Source of the DNA: Mitsuokella jalaludinii DSM 13811
Lineage (GTDB): Bacteria > Bacillota > Negativicutes > Selenomonadales > Selenomonadaceae
Direction of reading: 5' to 3'
Assembly (NCBI RefSeq): GCF_000702905.1
Contig: NZ_JNKR01000002.1
Span: 62,001 to 126,000, forward strand
Length of the DNA stretch: 64,000 bases
A program made the position numbers and the translations under genes. Numbering within the stretch: the stretch's first letter is position 1; each line of letters opens with the position of its first letter. Below, one piece after another: positions 6,518 to 53,912 of this stretch. A model generated the notes under the pieces. That model worked only from the letters and a program-made list of their open reading frames with translations, was not told the origin of the DNA and searched no databases.

Positions 6518-7021
6518 ATGAAAATCTTACTCGTTTATTCCAGCCGTACCGGCAATACGAAAAAAGTCGCCGAAGCCATCGGCGAGGAATTGGGGATTCC
6601 GGCCGTGCCGGTCGAAGAAAAGCCCGCAGCTGCCGACTTTGACCTCGTCATCGCGGGCTTCTGGGTCGACCGCGGCACGGCCGATGCCAAGATGAAGGCT
6701 TATCTCGAAAGCCTCAGAGAGGTTCGCGTGGCCATTTTTGCCACGCTTGGCGCCAAGGCGGATTCCGAACATGCTGCCCATTGCCTCGAAGCGGGCACTG
6801 CTCTTGTGGGCAAGGGCAGTAAAGTCGTCGGTAAGTTTATCTGTCAGGGAAAAGTCGACCAGAAAGTCGCCGAAGCCATGTTCAAGCAGTTCCCGGCCGG
6901 CCATACGCACGCGATGTCTCCTGCCTGGGCAAAACTCTTTCAGGAAGGTGCCACGCATCCCGATGAGCAGGACCTTGCCGCGGCCCGTGATTATTTCAGT
7001 AAGCTTGTTCGAGAGCTTTGA
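6518..7021 (+). CDS. short flavodoxin, possible heme/anaerobilin electron carrier
   Basis: FMN-binding redox protein of 167 residues. The phosphate-binding loop YSSRTGNTKK starts near residue 6 and the fold follows the short flavodoxin plan with a VIAGFWVDRGTAD loop near residue 47. ATG 6518 is chosen because AAGGAGG at 6506-6512 lies five bases upstream; the reading frame is open further upstream but without a ribosome site. It lies between tonB and the receptor. Flavodoxins of this short type are known as partners in anaerobic tetrapyrrole reduction (HmuF of Fusobacterium acting on anaerobilin; BilS with bilirubin reductase). A role in supplying electrons to HutW or reducing its product is inferred from position, not shown. 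Confidence 0.85.
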   Translation: MKILLVYSSRTGNTKKVAEAIGEELGIPAVPVEEKPAAADFDLVIAGFWVDRGTADAKMKAYLESLREVRVAIFATLGAKADSEHAAHCLEAGTALVGKGSKVVGKFICQGKVDQKVAEAMFKQFPAGHTHAMSPAWAKLFQEGATHPDEQDLAAARDYFSKLVREL

Positions 7022-7068
7022 ACAGCATAATAAGGTCCTTTACAAAATATAGAAATGGAGAAAGTAAG

Positions 7069-9099
7069 ATGAAGAAAAATATTGCCATGAAAAAGAAATC
7101 CCTGCTGGCCGCTGCCGTGCTCAGCACGCTTGTCTGTCCTGCTTATATGGGCAGGGCTGCCGCGGCAGACAGCGCGGACGCAGGCACCATCAAGGCAAGG
7201 GATGTCGTCGTTACGGCTTCGCGCACGGAGCAAGAAATTCGCCAGACGCCGACGGCCGTCGAGGTCATCACGCAGAAGGACCTCGAACGCACGGGCGCCA
7301 ATACCCTGACAGAGGCCCTGAAGACGGCCACGGATCTCAACATCACGCAGAGTGCCATGGGCAATAACGTCAGCCTGCGCGGCATGAACAATAACCAGAC
7401 TTTGATTCTTGTCAATGGCCGCCGCGTCCGCACGGAAGATACGAATGACTCGGCCAATAAATACGAGCTCAACCGCGTCAATATGTCCGACGTCGACCAT
7501 ATCGAAATTGTCCGCGGTGCGGCCAGTGCCCTTTACGGCTCGGATGCCATGGGCGGTGTCATCAATATTATCACGAAAAAGAGCAAAAAACCGGAAATCA
7601 CGGTCGGCGGCGACTGGACGACGCATGAAAAAGACGGATATGTCCATGCCGCTTCGGGCCAACAGGGGAAATGGGCCTTTGATATGGATGCGCGTTACAG
7701 CGATACGCGCAACTGGGGGACTCTTGGCTCGACGGCTCAGGTCATCAGCATGGGACCTGCCAGCACGTACACGATGCTGACGCAGACGACAAATCAGTAC
7801 GGCAAGCGTTATTTCTTCGACCTCGACGGACGTTATGCCATCGATAAAAACAAGGAATTTGATATCTTTTTTGATTATATGAAGGAAGACCTCAAGGCCC
7901 TTTCGACTACCAATCACATTGTCAGTTCACCGACTTTCAACCGCACGGTTCTGAGCGCCGGCTACCGCAATGATTTCGACCATGAACGCTGGACGACGGG
8001 CGTGGGCTATAAGGGCAAGGACAGCCGCGGCGATTATGAGATTCGCGCTTACCATACGCAGTTCGATAAGGACCAGAAGATTTATTATACGAGCTATACG
8101 GGCAAGCTGCATAAAGCGGGGGACCTCTCGAGCTCGGATGACATGACGTTCAAGTCGACAACGATTGACGGCCGCCGCTCTTATCAGGCCGACGACAAGA
8201 ACCTTCTGACCTTTGGCGGCAAATACCGCTGGGAAGATTACGATTCCACGCGCCTGACCAGCGATTCGAGCATGCGTTACGCAGCCCTCTATCTGCAGGA
8301 TGAATATACGCCGCAGCGCAACTGGCTGCTGATTCCGTCCGTACGTTGGGATTATAATGATGTCTTTGGCAGCAAAGTCACGGCCAAAATCGGCACGACG
8401 TACAACTTCAGCAAAAATGCGCGCTTCAAGGCCAACTTTGGCAGTGCCTACCGCGCCCCGACGGCCAGCGAGCTCTACATGGACTGGACGCATTCGAGCT
8501 ACGCCTACATCCAGGGCAACCCGAATCTGCGCCCCGAAACGGCCATCGATTATGACTTTGGCTTTGAGGCAGAGAAGGGCAGAACGTCCGGCAAGGTTTC
8601 CTACTTCCACAACCGCGTCAAGGATTTGATTGACTACGAATATCAGGGAGTCAGCCCGACGACGCATCTTTATTCCTATAAATACTACAACGTTGAACAT
8701 GCCGTCATTCAGGGCATCGAGGCCGAGGCCAAACAGCGCGTAGGCGACAAGCTCACACTCGGTGCATCCTACACGTTCCTCGACGCCGTCAACAGCGAAA
8801 CGGACGAACGCCTTGCCAACCGTGCCCGCCACAACGCCAAACTCATGCTGACGTACGATGATACGGCTAAGACCGGCCTCAGCGCCACACTCTGGCAGGA
8901 CTGGCTCATCAACTACCGCTACGAGCTCGGCAATGACAGCGGCATCACGCATCTTTCCACGACGAACTTCGTCATCAACAAGAAATTCCACAGCGGTCTC
9001 AGCGCTTACGTCGGCGTTGACAACATCTTCGATGAGCGTAACGTCAACCTCTTTAACGACGGACGCGTCTGGAGAGGCGGCTTGAAGTATACGTTCTAA
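7069..9099 (+). CDS. TonB-dependent heme/hemoglobin-type receptor
   Basis: Outer-membrane importer of 676 residues. A signal peptide (KKKSLLAAAVLSTLVCPAYM) is followed by a TonB box region (DVVVTASRTEQE), a plug domain to about residue 170 with LVNGRRV and IEIVRGAASALYGSDAMGG, and a beta-barrel ending in the aromatic strand GLKYTF. YRAP at residue 461 and NPNL at 484 with a histidine between them (DWTHSS) match the FRAP/NPNL signature of heme and hemoglobin receptors. ATG 7069 follows GGAGAAAG; ATG 7087 is an alternative. It completes the heme locus started by hutW and probably shares the exbB transcript. Confidence 0.9.
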   Translation: MKKNIAMKKKSLLAAAVLSTLVCPAYMGRAAAADSADAGTIKARDVVVTASRTEQEIRQTPTAVEVITQKDLERTGANTLTEALKTATDLNITQSAMGNNVSLRGMNNNQTLILVNGRRVRTEDTNDSANKYELNRVNMSDVDHIEIVRGAASALYGSDAMGGVINIITKKSKKPEITVGGDWTTHEKDGYVHAASGQQGKWAFDMDARYSDTRNWGTLGSTAQVISMGPASTYTMLTQTTNQYGKRYFFDLDGRYAIDKNKEFDIFFDYMKEDLKALSTTNHIVSSPTFNRTVLSAGYRNDFDHERWTTGVGYKGKDSRGDYEIRAYHTQFDKDQKIYYTSYTGKLHKAGDLSSSDDMTFKSTTIDGRRSYQADDKNLLTFGGKYRWEDYDSTRLTSDSSMRYAALYLQDEYTPQRNWLLIPSVRWDYNDVFGSKVTAKIGTTYNFSKNARFKANFGSAYRAPTASELYMDWTHSSYAYIQGNPNLRPETAIDYDFGFEAEKGRTSGKVSYFHNRVKDLIDYEYQGVSPTTHLYSYKYYNVEHAVIQGIEAEAKQRVGDKLTLGASYTFLDAVNSETDERLANRARHNAKLMLTYDDTAKTGLSATLWQDWLINYRYELGNDSGITHLSTTNFVINKKFHSGLSAYVGVDNIFDERNVNLFNDGRVWRGGLKYTF

Positions 9100-9137: not shown

Positions 9138-9325
9138 GAGAGGGGACAGTCCTGCGCTCCGCGGTGACATTCGGCTAAACGGATTTTTTGCCTTATAATT
9201 TATCCTTACCAAAGAGCTAAACGCACTTCGTTTGGACGGACGCTCTTTGGCAAGGTTTTTGGCGGGCAAAAAATCCGTTTTTTACGCCGAATGTCAAACG
9301 CTCCGCGCCGGCCTGCCCCCTCTCT
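9138..9325. repeat. large nested imperfect palindrome, copy 1
   Basis: A set of nested inverted repeats: GAGAGGGGACAG-type arms outermost, then GACATTCGGC (9166-9175) with GCCGAATGTC (9286-9295), CGGATTTTTTGCC with GGCAAAAAATCCG, CCAAAGAGC with GCTCTTTGG, and a central AAACG/CGTTT tip near 9220. The whole could fold into one long hairpin. No gene is seen in 9100-9720; short open frames here are by-products of the palindromes. Confidence 0.75.
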
Positions 9326-9723: not shown

Positions 9724-11376
9724 ATGACGAAAAGCACGAAACCAATCTATGTCATTGGTCATCGCAATCCGGATACGGATTCCATCTGCTCGGCCATCGG
9801 CTATGCGCACCTGAAGCAGGCACTTGGCTTCAACGCAGTCCCGGCACGCGCCGGCAAGGTCAATGCGGAGACGAAATACGCGCTCGACTACTTCCACGTC
9901 GAGCAGCCGCTGCTGCTTTCGGATCTCTATCCGCGCGTCAAGGATGTCACGCTCGACTGCAAGATCGTCGTCCGCCAGCACGACACGCTGCGCCATCTCG
10001 GCGAAGTCATGCGCGGCCATGACCTCAAATCGGTGCCGGTCACGGACAGCAAGGGCATTCTCGTCGGCATCGTCACGGTATCGGACCTCGCGAAGCGCTA
10101 TTTCCAGGAGCTCAGCATGCAGGATCTATCGGAGATGCGCGTGCGCTATCGCGACATCATCGCAGCAACGGACAGCAAGGTGCTCGTCTCGGGCAATGAG
10201 AGCGACTTCATCCACGGCAAGATCCGCATCGCTGCCGGCTCGATCAAGATGATCCAGGACACGGTCGAGAAAAACGACATCGTGCTCGTAGGCGACCGCC
10301 ACGATGAGACGCTCATCGACATCGTCGATCAGGGCATCTCCTGCCTCATCATCACGGGCAATGGCCGCGTCTCGGCTGATGTCATCGAAGCCGCTGAGGC
10401 AAAGCACATCTTCGTCCTCTCGACGCCGTATGACACGTATACGGTAGCCCGCCTGATCAACCAGTGCGTGCCGATCCGCCGCATCATGCATCCGGACCCG
10501 GTCTGCTTCAAGCCGCTCGACCTGCTCTCGGACATCAAGGGCACGATGGAGGAGACGAACTACCGCAACTACCCGGTCCTCGAGAACGGCCGCCTTGTCG
10601 GCCTCGTCAGCCGCGACAACCTCATGCTGCCGGAGCGCGACCGCGTCATCCTCGTCGACCACAATGAGCGCGGCCAGGCCGTCGAGGGCATCGAGGAAGC
10701 CAAGATCCTCGAGATCATCGACCACCATCGCCTCGGCGGCATCCAGACGAGCGAGCCGATCTTCACGCATGCTGAGCCGGTCGGCTGCACGGCCACGATC
10801 GTCGCGAACATGCACTGGCAGAATGATGTCGACATCCCGGCATCCATCGCAGGCCTCCTGCTCTCGGCCATCCTCTCGGATACGGTCCTCTTCAAGAGCC
10901 CGACCTGCACGCCGTACGACAAGAAGACGGCAGAGCGCCTCGCTGAGATCGCCGGCGTCGATATCCAGGAATACGGCATGGCGATGCTCAAGGCTGGTTC
11001 CGGCATCGGCGACATGACGCCGGCTGAGATCGCCAAGAACGACCTCAAGGAGTTCCAGATCGGCGACTACCGCGTCATCGTCAGCCAGATCTCGGTCATG
11101 GACCCGAAGGAAGTCATGGATCTCGAGCCGCAGCTCATCGAAGCGATGCAGAACATCTGCGACAAGGAGGGCTTCGACCTCAGCCTCGTCATGGTCACGG
11201 ACATCCTGCAGGAAGCGACGTACCTGCTCTTCACGGGTTCGCCAAAGACGCTCATCGGCGAGGCCTTCAAGAAGGACGCTAGCGGCACGCACATCTACCT
11301 GCCGGGCGTCATGAGCCGCAAGAAACAGGTCATCCCGCCTCTCTCCGAGGCCGTCAAGCGCATCGGCAAGAACTGA
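9724..11376 (+). CDS. ppaC: manganese-dependent inorganic pyrophosphatase with CBS-DRTGG insert
   Basis: Cytosolic family II pyrophosphatase hydrolysing PPi to phosphate. DHH-type motifs are visible: GHRNPDTDS at residues 12-20, VDHNERGQ and IDHHRLGG near 315-340, and the C-terminal substrate motif SRKKQ near 530. The 550-residue length, against about 310 for plain family II enzymes, is explained by an insert from about residue 70 to 300 holding two CBS domains (the first near SVPVTDSKGILVGIVTVSD) around a DRTGG domain; such enzymes are known to be controlled by adenine nucleotides. A clear AGGAGG precedes the ATG, and TATAAT at 9654-9659 is a candidate -10. Confidence 0.95.
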   Translation: MTKSTKPIYVIGHRNPDTDSICSAIGYAHLKQALGFNAVPARAGKVNAETKYALDYFHVEQPLLLSDLYPRVKDVTLDCKIVVRQHDTLRHLGEVMRGHDLKSVPVTDSKGILVGIVTVSDLAKRYFQELSMQDLSEMRVRYRDIIAATDSKVLVSGNESDFIHGKIRIAAGSIKMIQDTVEKNDIVLVGDRHDETLIDIVDQGISCLIITGNGRVSADVIEAAEAKHIFVLSTPYDTYTVARLINQCVPIRRIMHPDPVCFKPLDLLSDIKGTMEETNYRNYPVLENGRLVGLVSRDNLMLPERDRVILVDHNERGQAVEGIEEAKILEIIDHHRLGGIQTSEPIFTHAEPVGCTATIVANMHWQNDVDIPASIAGLLLSAILSDTVLFKSPTCTPYDKKTAERLAEIAGVDIQEYGMAMLKAGSGIGDMTPAEIAKNDLKEFQIGDYRVIVSQISVMDPKEVMDLEPQLIEAMQNICDKEGFDLSLVMVTDILQEATYLLFTGSPKTLIGEAFKKDASGTHIYLPGVMSRKKQVIPPLSEAVKRIGKN

Positions 11377-11499: not shown

Positions 11500-15879
<4,380 letters not shown>

Positions 15880-15927: not shown

Positions 15928-15956
15928 TTGATTTTCTGAGCAATCTCTGTTATAGT
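15928..15956 (+). promoter_or_regulatory. promoter of the structured RNA after ligA
   Basis: TTGATT at 15928-15933, 17-base spacer, TATAGT at 15951-15956 with a TG just before it. It lies 48 bases after ligA and reads into a gene-free structured stretch. Confidence 0.75.
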
Positions 15957-15962
15957 AAAGAC

Positions 15963-16153
15963 TGTAAGGATTACCGCAATCCTTACAGTCTCCTTTCTTG
16001 TTGGGCCTAGATAAGAGGTGGGTCCTAAGGGCGAACGGACCTATCTATGAGAGCGGCAGTGGGAAGCAGTCGGCTGGCACGGAAACATGAGCCGACTGGC
16101 GCCGTTCTCTCAACAAAAAGCTCCGCAGCGATACGCATGCTGCGGAGCTTTTT
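15963..16153 (+). ncRNA. candidate structured small RNA of about 190 nt, unknown family
   Basis: No protein is encoded in 15880-16190. From the predicted start there is a 5' hairpin (GACTGTAAGGATT with AATCCTTACAGTC, 15960-15990), which may also end ligA transcripts. It is followed by a three-way junction closed by TTGTTG (15998-16003) with CAACAA (16111-16116). One arm pairs TAGATA plus GGTCC with GGACC plus TATCTA (16008-16047). The other pairs GAGAGCGGC with GCCGTTCTC and then CAGTCGGCT with AGCCGACTG (16049-16109), with an asymmetric internal loop. The RNA ends at a strong terminator, 16115-16153. I do not recognise it as 6S, SRP, tmRNA, RNase P or a riboswitch class. Confidence 0.65.
16115..16153. 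terminator. bidirectional terminator between the small RNA and the nitroreductase gene
   Basis: AAAAAGCTCCGCAG (16115-16128) pairs with CTGCGGAGCTTTTT (16140-16153); T-runs occur on both strands, so it can end the small RNA on plus and the nitroreductase transcript on minus. Confidence 0.88.
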
Positions 16154-16190
16154 ATTGCTTGTTCCTATGAAGATCATGAAGATACAGGAC

Positions 16191-16763
16191 TCAGCCAAAG
16201 ACCTTGACGCGGGCCTTGATGTCTTCCTTGTCCTTTGCCTGCGGCTCAGCGGCGATGCCACCGAACGGCATCTGGGCGATGAGCTTCCAGGAATCCGGCA
16301 CCGAGAACATCTTCTTGACCGTCTCGTCGATGACGGGGTTGTAGTGCTGGAGGTTGGCGCCGATGTTGAGCTCGCGCAGTGCCGTCCAGATACTGATCTG
16401 CAGCATGCCGTTGGCCTGCTGTGCCCAGATCGGGAAGTTTGCCGCATAGAGCGGGAACTGCTCCTGGAGGCCCTTGACGACGTCCTCGTCGTAGAAGTAG
16501 AGCAGCGTGCCGTAGCCCGCCTTGAAGCTATCAATCTTCTCGCGGGCGACCTTGCCGCCGAAAGCCTCGTAGATGGCGTCCCAGAGTTCATCCTGCTTTG
16601 CTTTCGTCACGACAATCACGCGGGCACTCTTCATGTTGAACGCATCCGGCACGAGCTCCGTCGTGTTCTCGACGAGCGCGACGACTTCTTCCTCTGCGAC
16701 CGGCAGTTCCTTGTTGATGTTGTAGTACGTGCGGCGCTTGGCCAGCGATTCCTGGATACCCAT
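16191..16763 (-). CDS. nitroreductase family protein
   Basis: FMN-dependent NAD(P)H oxidoreductase of the nitroreductase fold, 190 residues, probably a soluble homodimer. The N-terminal RRTYYNI near residue 10 replaces the usual RRSIR phosphate-contact motif, and the middle (QQANGMLQISIWTALRELNIGANLQHYNP) and end (QMPFGGIA) are characteristic of the HBN/NfrA-like subgroup. ATG 16763 is chosen because GAGGAG lies seven bases upstream; the longer open frame has no ribosome site. Substrate unknown. Confidence 0.85.
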   Translation of the reverse strand: MGIQESLAKRRTYYNINKELPVAEEEVVALVENTTELVPDAFNMKSARVIVVTKAKQDELWDAIYEAFGGKVAREKIDSFKAGYGTLLYFYDEDVVKGLQEQFPLYAANFPIWAQQANGMLQISIWTALRELNIGANLQHYNPVIDETVKKMFSVPDSWKLIAQMPFGGIAAEPQAKDKEDIKARVKVFG

Positions 16764-16996
16764 GGTGTTTCTCCTCTTTTCTCTTGATTCTTCTTGTGCT
16801 GTGATATCGTAGCATTCATACAGACGATATCCTTGATTTATGATTAGTATAGTATAATCATTCTCACTTGTCAATATAAAACTTACAACATGGCGCGAAA
16901 GCCTTGCCGCAGTTGAAACGAGCGCAGAGGACTGTTATAATAAAGTATTGCTGATAAGGCCGAAACAGTATCTTGGGAAACGAGAGGGGTGTGCAG

Positions 16997-51106: not shown

Positions 51107-52042
51107 ATGCAGCAGGACATGCGCTACGTCTATGAAGTCTACAAGCAGAAGAGCTTTTCCAAGGCCGCGCAGGCGCTCTTCATCACCCAGCCGGCCCTGA
51201 GCATCGCGATTGGCAAGCTCGAAGACAAGATCGGCATGCCCATCTTCGACCGCAGCACGCGCCCCATCAGCCTGACCACCGCCGGGCGCGTCTACCTCCG
51301 GGCCATCGAGCAGACGCGGGCGCTCGAACAGGACCTTCGCCATCAACTCGATGACATCCGCGAGCTAAAGCGCGGCGAGATCACGATCGGCAGTAGCCAT
51401 TTCATCAACGCCTACATCCTGCCCCGCATCCTCACCGCGTTCAACCAGGCCTTCCCGCAGATCCGCCTGAACCTGCTCGAAGGCAGTTCCCACGCGATGG
51501 CCCACATGCTGGAGCAGGGCGAGATCGACCTGACCTTCAGCTGTGACGACTGCGTCATAAAGAACTTCGCGAGCACGCCCGCCTTCACCGACACCATCCT
51601 GCTGGCCATCCCCGGGGACGGTCCCCGCCACGCGCAGCGCGAGCGCCTGACGGCAGCAGACATCCTCGCCGGGCGGCACCTCGACCCCGGCTGCCCGAGC
51701 GTCGACCTCACGGACTTTGCCGCAGAGCCCTTCATCCTGCTGCGCAGCGGCAACAACCTGCACGACCGCGCCATGCGCTTCTTCCACCGGGCAGGCATCG
51801 AGCCCGCGGTCAAGATGGAGCTCTCTCAGATGGCCACCGCCTACCGCCTCGCCGAAGCAGGCTTCGCCGCCACCTTCCTGAGCGACCGCCTCATCGTCCA
51901 CAAGAACAGCCGTCTCTCATTCTACCGCCTCGCCGCCCCCGAGAGCCGGCGCAGCTTCTACGCCCTGACGAATCCCAAGCGCTACACGTCAGAAGCCGTC
52001 CAGCAGTTCATCGGCCTCATGCCGCAGGCCAGCGCAATCTGA
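51107..52042 (+). CDS. LysR-family transcriptional regulator
   Basis: 311-residue regulator with the N-terminal winged helix (FSKAAQALFITQPALSIAIGKLE near residue 17) and a C-terminal periplasmic-binding-like effector domain. It is divergent from the UxaA-type dehydratase with about 180 bases between them, the usual layout for control of a neighbour by a LysR protein responding to its substrate. ATG 51107 has GAAAGAAGGA at the right distance; ATG 51101 is too close. Confidence 0.92.
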   Translation: MQQDMRYVYEVYKQKSFSKAAQALFITQPALSIAIGKLEDKIGMPIFDRSTRPISLTTAGRVYLRAIEQTRALEQDLRHQLDDIRELKRGEITIGSSHFINAYILPRILTAFNQAFPQIRLNLLEGSSHAMAHMLEQGEIDLTFSCDDCVIKNFASTPAFTDTILLAIPGDGPRHAQRERLTAADILAGRHLDPGCPSVDLTDFAAEPFILLRSGNNLHDRAMRFFHRAGIEPAVKMELSQMATAYRLAEAGFAATFLSDRLIVHKNSRLSFYRLAAPESRRSFYALTNPKRYTSEAVQQFIGLMPQASAI

Positions 52043-52049
52043 CACAAAA

Positions 52050-52093
52050 AATCGCATCGCCTCCGGATAGTACATCCAGATGGCGATGCGATT
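52050..52093 (-). terminator. intrinsic terminator after the esterase remnant
   Basis: AATCGCATCGCC (52050-52061) pairs with GGCGATGCGATT (52082-52093); on the minus strand TTTTTT follows. Confidence 0.8.
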
Positions 52094-52105
52094 GTGTCCG
52101 GCACA

Positions 52106-52452
52106 TCATTGACATAGACCCGTTTGAGCGCGCCGGGCGACGTGCCCTGCGTCAGATCCTGCTCGCGAAGCGTCATGCCGTAGTCCTCAATGGCAAACGT
52201 GCTCGCATCGACCGCCGCAGCCGGTATCGGCCGATCATACGAGAGCACGATGGCCTTGAGCTTCGAGCCATCCGTATCGACAACCCCCACCGTCCGGACA
52301 TCCCGGATGGCCTGGTCGGCCGTCGTGACAAAGTCCGGCTCCTGCTGCTGCACTTGCGGCGCAGACGGCACCTCTGCCGCCCAGACAGGAGCCGCCGTGC
52401 CCAAAGAAAGCATCACCGCCAACGATAGGATTGCCCTGGTTTTCCGATTCAT
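52106..52452 (-). pseudogene. 3'-truncated exported protein (esterase Ig-like N-terminal domain)
   Basis: A signal peptide (RAILSLAVMLSLGTAAPVWA) and about 90 residues of an N-terminal domain (KAIVLSYDRPIPAAAVDAST...KRVYVNDVP) resembling the Ig-like domain in front of some secreted esterases. After NDVPDT the frame runs straight into the gene's own terminator and on into the end of the LysR gene, so the catalytic part has been lost by deletion. Domain identification is tentative. Confidence 0.65.
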
Positions 52453-52567
52453 ACACAAACCCTCAATTCCAACAAAACACGAAACCCTGTCCGCATTTTA
52501 CACCTTTCCGGCCAGACAAAAAAGAGGATATCCATTAGAATCCGTACGGCACTCAACAGGATAAGCA

Positions 52568-52608
52568 AAGGGTGCGCTCAAGAAAGTAACTTTCTTGAGC
52601 GCACCCTT
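52568..52608. terminator. 41-bp near-perfect hairpin
   Basis: Twenty-base arms at 52568-52587 and 52589-52608 are exact inverse complements (AAGGGTGCGCTCAAGAAAGT). It ends the AAA-ATPase pseudogene transcript. Confidence 0.8.
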
Positions 52609-52611
52609 GCA

Positions 52612-53912
52612 TTATATTGCAATCACGTAGACTTTCTTGTCGCAAAAGGCTATCCCATACCTCCATACATTCTGTATGCCTCGCTTTTGGAATTCTGTCT
52701 CATGTGGTTGAGGATTTCTGTCGCATAGATGTCGCGGATTTCTTTATTGGGGATGCGCAGGGCATAGCGGTTGCGGCGGGTGGCGACTGATGTGGTGGTG
52801 GTCAGATAGCCGGTCAGCAGGAGAATCGTATACAGGGCACTCTTGTCGCGCCCGATATCTTCATAGATGACGCGCTCGTTCAGCGTAACCTGTATCGTGT
52901 CGCCATCCAGGAGCGTCTGCAGTGCCTCGATCCGCTGCGCATCCGCCTTTTCGAGCAGTGCGCGCAGGATGCCATTGCCAGAGGTATTGACCCAGTAATC
53001 GCCAAAGCGGTCATTGCGGAAGAAATTGATGACTGACCACGGGTTGTAAATCTCCACTTCACCAAAATGGTAGCCGTCGTACCATCTTCGGATTTCAGGC
53101 AGGCGGTCCTCGCGTCCCAGATCATGCGCCATCTCGGTGACTTCCTCCGACGTGAAGCCGATGACGTCGTCATAGCGCGTGCTCAAGACAGAGCAGACAT
53201 CGAGGTTGTTGAGGTCGCTGAAAATGCTTTCCTTAGCCACACGCAGGACGCCAGTCAGCACAGCAAATGCCAGATTGTCATTGCTCTTGAGCGCACTGCC
53301 GAGCAACTGCTTCAGGAAGGCAATGCATTCCCGATAAAAACCATTCTCCCAAGCCTGTTGGACAGGTGCATCATATTCATCAATGAGCAGGATGACCTGC
53401 CGCCCATAATGCTGACGCAGCATCTCCATCAAGAGAGCCAGCGCCGCAGAAAGGCGCGCTTCATCCGCTTCCATCTCTACAATCTGCTGGAAGCGCTTCT
53501 TCAACGGATCCTGCACGCGCGGGCTGTCGAGCAGATAGGTGTACCGGAGAAATAGCATGCTGATGTAACTGGAAAACAGCCCCTGCATCATCTCCCAGCT
53601 CAGACCATTCGTATCCTTGAACGTCAGGAACACCACCGGATACTGCCCGCACGCCCCCATATACGACGCCCCAGCCCGCTCGATGTCCAGCCCCACGAAG
53701 AGTTCACGGCTCTTGTCTGCCTTATCAATGGAAAAGAACCAGTCGAGCATGCTCATCGTCAGCGTCTTGCCGAACCGCCTCGGTCTCGTCAAGAGCGTCA
53801 CTTTGCTATGCTCATCCAGCAGTTGCCGAATGAACCGCGTCTTGTCGACAAAATAATACCCCTTCCGCAATTCGCAGAAGTCTTCCACGCCGATTGGCAT
53901 TGCCTTGTGCAT
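52612..53912 (-). pseudogene. AAA-ATPase/PD-(D/E)XK protein with deleted nuclease domain
   Basis: The 420-codon open frame (53912-52650) encodes the AAA-ATPase-like domain: GYYFVDKTRFI near residue 18, Walker A TRPRRFGKT near 42, Walker B VILLIDEYDAP near 173, and conserved YNPWSVINFF near 290. Complete members are about 520-560 residues with a C-terminal PD-(D/E)XK domain. Here the frame stops after about 15 junction residues, but the family's usual last residues (YGIAFCDKKVYVIAI) remain in another frame at 52612-52660. So most of the nuclease domain was lost by a frame-disrupting deletion near 52660-52690. The ATPase part may still be made. Confidence 0.8.

Follow-up and report, generated by a model that had tools for sequence, protein, structure and literature searches.

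CU-rich and C-rich single-stranded motifs that bind Shine–Dalgarno (SD) sites are established for Gram-positive small RNAs (sRNAs), as two reports describe (PMC4132741, PMC9410917). In LhrC of Listeria, CUCCC...UUUU lies within a single-stranded stretch (PMC4132741). Like the anti-SD sRNAs LhrC, IsrR of Staphylococcus, and FsrA and RoxS of Bacillus, the element described here is intergenic and has a predicted promoter and terminator of its own. It lies in the window (the whole stretch of Mitsuokella jalaludinii DNA that was analysed, 64000 bases), where a promoter, a hairpin at the 5′ end, a body with branches and a convergent terminator take up the gap between ligA and a nitroreductase-family gene (Table 1). 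The initial annotation had placed a structured RNA here, and both its coordinates and its description of the parts were correct. We tentatively propose, with rather less than even confidence, that this gap encodes a lineage-specific, independently transcribed and trans-acting structured sRNA of ~190 nt.

The promoter is of the extended −10 type; the arrangement TTGATT-17-TATAGT with TG upstream of the −10 was observed once, as against 0.3 occurrences expected in shuffled sequence. It had been described as near-consensus. A promoter with an extended −10 does exist, but with 9 of 12 consensus positions matched and a weak −35, that description was generous. The spacing from the −10 indicates that the RNA probably starts within 15961–15964. 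Directly behind the promoter we found the 5′ hairpin that had been claimed, a perfect 14-bp inverted repeat, and further on the perfect 9-bp stem and the strong terminator of the earlier description, together with a 10-bp arm in the predicted fold. Judged by its sequence, the terminator can serve both the candidate RNA and the convergent nitroreductase gene. A promoter and a terminator of its own, as expected of an independent sRNA, are thus both present as sequence matches. The plus strand downstream of the candidate carries no gene until about 16996, which supports the earlier proposal that a structured RNA is encoded here on its own and not as a leader. The unit is conserved in a sister species, M. 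multacida DSM 20544, whose orthologue is likewise flanked by ligA and the nitroreductase gene. The host genome holds one copy.

Table 1. Coordinates of the predicted parts of the candidate RNA gene, its neighbours and the housekeeping RNAs of the host genome (window positions unless a contig, C, is given).
Feature	Position	Strand	Details
ligA, NAD-dependent DNA ligase, upstream neighbour	13840..15879	+	
Extended −10 promoter	15928..15956	+	TTGATT 15928-15933, 17-nt spacer, TG 15948-15949, TATAGT 15951-15956
5′ hairpin, 14-bp perfect inverted repeat, loop ACCGC	15959..15991	+	fold and repeat search
Invariant block CTCCTTTCTTGTTGGGCC, includes linker CUCCUUUC	15990..16007	+	
Junction-closing helix P1, 5′ strand UUGUU	15998..16002	+	partner 16112-16116
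P1, 3′ strand AACAA	16112..16116	+	overlaps terminator A-tract
Arm P2	16016..16046	+	predicted fold; 10-bp stem 16016-16025/16037-16046, loop UAAGGGCGAAC
Arm P3	16049..16109	+	GAGAGCGGC (16049-16057) / GCCGUUCUC (16101-16109) and inner stem
P3 inner stem, 9 bp, perfect	16067-16075/16090-16098	+	loop GGCACGGAAACAUG
Strong terminator	16115..16153	both directions	A- and T-tracts flanking both sides
Nitroreductase-family protein, convergent neighbour	16191..16763	−	PF00881, E 2e-16
6S RNA copy of host genome	C4:12204-12376		
tmRNA copy of host genome	C24:3256-3592		
SRP RNA copy of host genome	C6:73340-73439		

In the reading that we prefer, transcription from the extended −10 promoter to the intrinsic terminator would yield an RNA of ~190 nt, laid out as a 5′ hairpin cap, a short CU-rich linker that stays unpaired (CUCCUUUC), a body of two arms and the terminator. 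The linker would pair with the SD regions of a few mRNAs and so keep ribosomes from binding; the role of the 5′ hairpin and the body would be to confer stability or bind protein. The linker is complementary to SD sequences, and its core, CCUUU, is predicted to be unpaired with a probability of 0.81–0.99 in both species, so that on predicted pairing it constitutes a single-stranded, CU-rich, SD-complementary motif.

Candidate targets were scanned in the window and 400 kb of genome, with tail-shuffled controls that retain CTCCTT. Over 319 predicted starts, the energies of the block averaged −12.7, compared with −12.1 when the tail was shuffled and −11.5 when the block was fully shuffled; none of these starts was an outlying target, and the best shuffled blocks bound better than the real block did at its best site. 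Exact SD partners (AAGAAAGGAG) before an ATG numbered 7 and 5 in the two carriers and 6 in a genome without the RNA. Because the target energies contain no outlier and exact partners are equally common in the non-carrier, pairing of the linker with SD sites in trans is plausible but no more. The leader of one treC-like gene, AAGAAAGGAGCATATACATG, is the same in the two species carrying the candidate RNA, and its duplex is predicted at −17.7 kcal/mol; we rejected it as evidence, since 28 of the 319 predicted starts were as good. This glycosidase gene (loci L074 and L075, near 1500) resembles that of trehalose-6-phosphate hydrolase, a name assigned from the start of the protein, and the leader stretch TTCTCAGAAGAAAGGAGCATATACATG is likewise shared without change by both carriers.

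The absence of an SD-target signal exceeding shuffles is what would be expected if a stand-alone structured RNA acted instead through its folded body, by binding a protein or a small molecule, with the CU linker a mere spacer. We consider this possible, though doubtful. It draws further support from the loops UAAGGGCGAAC/UACGGGCGAAU and the apical GGCA-CGGAA segment, which are kept between the two species while the stems change. The preservation of pairing through sequence change counts, in turn, for the trans-acting sRNA that we prefer. When the two sequences were aligned with the fitted model, pairing was found in 89.2% of 65 cells; four pairs had changed at both bases and two at one base, and slid-partner controls gave none changed at both. 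When the 3′ letters were shuffled, the observed paired percentage was reached in 15 of 500 cases and the observed covariation score in 91 of 500, a comparison that involves two sequences only. When the differing letters were permuted in a plain alignment, an energy as low was reached in 5 of 1000 permutations for the window species and 46 of 1000 for M. multacida. By stem, three of the nine pairs of the P3 inner stem are changed on both sides in M. multacida; in P2 one pair has both of its bases replaced, two have a single base replaced and one is broken, the one-sided changes both retaining pairing on the plus strand via G-U and the broken pair being A-C. These modelled pairings lend moderate support, from one species pair, to conserved pairing between the two species.

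A body-acting RNA would fit less easily with the modest stability of the body and with a first-arm fold that differs between the species. In M. multacida, P2 is 3.3 kcal/mol worse than the preferred fold, in which GGUCC pairs with the preceding GGGCC (probability 0.96–0.97, as against 0.01 for P2); in the window species the corresponding values are 0.00 for the GGUCC/GGGCC pairing and 0.99–1.0 for P2. The branched body of the proposed three-way junction is likewise predicted, but its closing helix, P1, lies ≤0.4 kcal/mol from the best fold and has a pair probability of only 0.22–0.55 here and 0.24–0.60 in the orthologue. Because P1 is formed in about half of the ensemble and the species prefer opposite first-arm pairings, we do not regard the three-way junction as a settled fold.

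The fold energy of the whole region is far below that of shuffles (z −6.57, and z −7.35 for 15957–16154). The 5′ hairpin and the terminator account for most of this large score. The body minus these two parts gave z −2.39 on the plus strand and −2.33 on the minus strand (300 shuffles), and that of M. multacida −2.26 and −3.12, respectively. When the window was divided into 158-nt stretches without overlap, 808 over the two strands, the core (body and hairpin) came fifth by energy excess and fell outside the top ten by z; its fold is therefore not unique in the window.

The opposite strand of the body is predicted to fold to much the same degree, which would be consistent with there being no functional RNA at all, the gap comprising a promoter that is weak or spurious, a palindromic operator just behind it, the terminator of the nitroreductase gene and incidental sequence between them. 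We judge this unlikely, even though the hairpin follows directly after the −10, where it could be a protein site in DNA, and the symmetric terminator is found 37 nt past the nitroreductase stop. The conservation of the gap bears on this point. With the terminator set aside, the transcribed region agrees with that of M. multacida at 114 of 146 ungapped columns, the DNA identity of the adjoining genes being 1820/2025 for ligA and 527/575 for the nitroreductase gene. The promoter aligns with 24 of 27 ungapped columns identical (Z 6.6 against shuffles) and contains CTGTTATAGTAA unchanged, and the hairpin aligns with Z 5.3 and the terminator with Z 14.7, 38 of its 39 bases being identical. The body between them is itself conserved (Z 12.0), which counts against incidental sequence, whereas the spacers outside the unit scarcely align against shuffles (Z 2.0 before the promoter, Z 0.6 after the terminator). 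Because promoter, hairpin, body and terminator align and the outer spacers hardly do, the conserved unit starts and ends as an RNA gene would. The 5′ hairpin of M. multacida is an 11-bp version with one bulge, one G-U pair and a different loop length; an RNA could tolerate such a difference in arm spacing and the change of one A-T to G-T, whereas in a DNA operator both would be odd. Functional spacer DNA can be conserved to a similar degree, since the divergent spacer beyond the nitroreductase gene, which is expected to hold two promoters, also aligns between the species (Z 8.5). Similarly, the identical 18-base run CTCCTTTCTTGTTGGGCC is insignificant when taken alone, because at the divergence of the two species it has a chance P of 0.26.

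The opposite first-arm pairings could also be read as the two exclusive states of a young, genus-restricted riboregulator, in which the conserved GGUCC would pair either with the preceding invariant GGGCC or with the following GGACC/GGGCC. Since the models of the two species stand in opposite states, a ligand, a protein or an mRNA could flip such an RNA and alter access to the anti-SD linker; as an account of the fold models, we hold this to be very improbable. That a short ORF within the transcript makes this a small protein gene is the least credible of the readings considered, for although small TTG- and GTG-started frames are present, an 8-nt indel and different stop positions leave no ORF conserved between the two species, no SD-preceded ATG is common to both, and a 246-aa ORF (16047–16787) runs antisense through the nitroreductase gene.

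Returning to the trans-acting sRNA that we favour, its distribution was assessed by BLAST and by a covariance model (R1) in 189 genomes of the family, and by the model alone in samples of 380 class and 398 phylum genomes, the three sets overlapping; searches spanning more than 40 genomes applied stricter filters, under which weak matches are lost. BLAST at E≤0.01 gave a match in four of the family genomes, two of which were short pieces (21 and 38–40 nt), and, apart from the host, a single genome among the 189 yielded a full-length relative. The model detected the element in two family genomes, both Mitsuokella, so the suggestion that it occurs after ligA across the Selenomonadaceae was not supported. 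It matched four of the class genomes at E≤0.5 and two of the phylum genomes at E≤0.1; in all three sets, convincing scores were confined to the two Mitsuokella copies. The two extra class matches (19.1 bits, E 0.35–0.39) came from related genomes (L057 and L058) and were treated as chance; an ORF spans the L057 match. The pattern CTCCTTTCTTGTTGGGCC was found in three contigs when genome contigs were searched, one from M. multacida and two from Clostridia. The Clostridia contigs (16.3 and 12.2 bits) were again treated as chance: read on the reverse strand, one match (L053) is a leader in which an SD precedes an ATG, and the other (L051) contains an SD-like AAAGGAGG.

Among the 30 ligA loci, 19 lay on the plus strand, and the bases following ligA contained the element in two of these 19. 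A scan of both strands of 28 ligA loci (the two Mitsuokella loci excluded), together with L056–L058, gave matches only in L057 and L058. No copy of the candidate RNA was found in the third Mitsuokella genome. This genome, which is rated 100% complete, has no match to the LigA protein of the window, and its nitroreductase gene stands in a different context. On these sequence searches, the element appears to be lineage-restricted, or else to change too fast to be recognized further away.

At the gathering score, Rfam 15 gave no match anywhere in the 64000-base window, in agreement with the initial remark that the element resembles no familiar riboswitch or housekeeping RNA motif. The best sub-threshold match in the region was to rimP (24.6 bits against a gathering score of 47) and lay on the opposite strand; the RT-8 RNA motif (RF03029) gave a weak match of 18.8 bits, with E 0.82 in 341 bases, where its gathering score is 87. 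With nothing at the gathering score and the loose matches far below threshold, assignment to a known Rfam family was rejected. A housekeeping RNA was rejected because 6S RNA, tmRNA and SRP RNA each score over threshold elsewhere in the genome (Table 1), and a repeat or mobile element because the genome has just one full-length match and there is no phage match. A literature search of titles and abstract openings returned no paper on a Mitsuokella sRNA; the motif may already have been predicted in the human-microbiome RNA survey PMC8040213.

Two other structured features of the window are recorded here in their own right. A near-perfect inverted repeat of ~130 nt (9166–9303; z about −7 on both strands) occupies part of a 625-nt spacer between the ORFs 7018–9099 and 9724–11376, and is possibly a palindromic mobile element. 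A strong hairpin, GGGTGCGCTCAAGAAAGTAACTTTCTTGAGCGCACCC, at approximately 52572–52607 lies between two minus-strand ORFs (51982–52458 and 52650–53912) and is probably a terminator.

We conclude that the gap downstream of ligA is a good candidate locus for a structured orphan sRNA at the level of the genus, new in sequence and ordinary in kind. Should it be transcribed, Mitsuokella would have in it a structured sRNA and a recently arisen RNA gene, which two close species carry and which the third genome of the genus and the remaining family genomes that were searched lack.

Set beside described RNAs, the candidate resembles the RT-8 motif (RF03029) weakly and in its promoter-hairpin part alone, and differs from it in that neither adjoining gene is a reverse transcriptase. 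It shares with 6S RNA (RF00013) a comparable length and a stand-alone position; it differs in having branched arms and no 6S match, and the genome has its own 6S RNA elsewhere. From LhrC, IsrR, FsrA and RoxS it is set apart by a linker, CUCCUUUC, that lacks the UCCC core motif of anti-SD sRNAs, by its branched body and by the absence of any sequence relation in the Rfam searches. What it has in common with these four is a stretch between stem-loops, predicted here to be unpaired, that is CU-rich and complementary to SD sequences.
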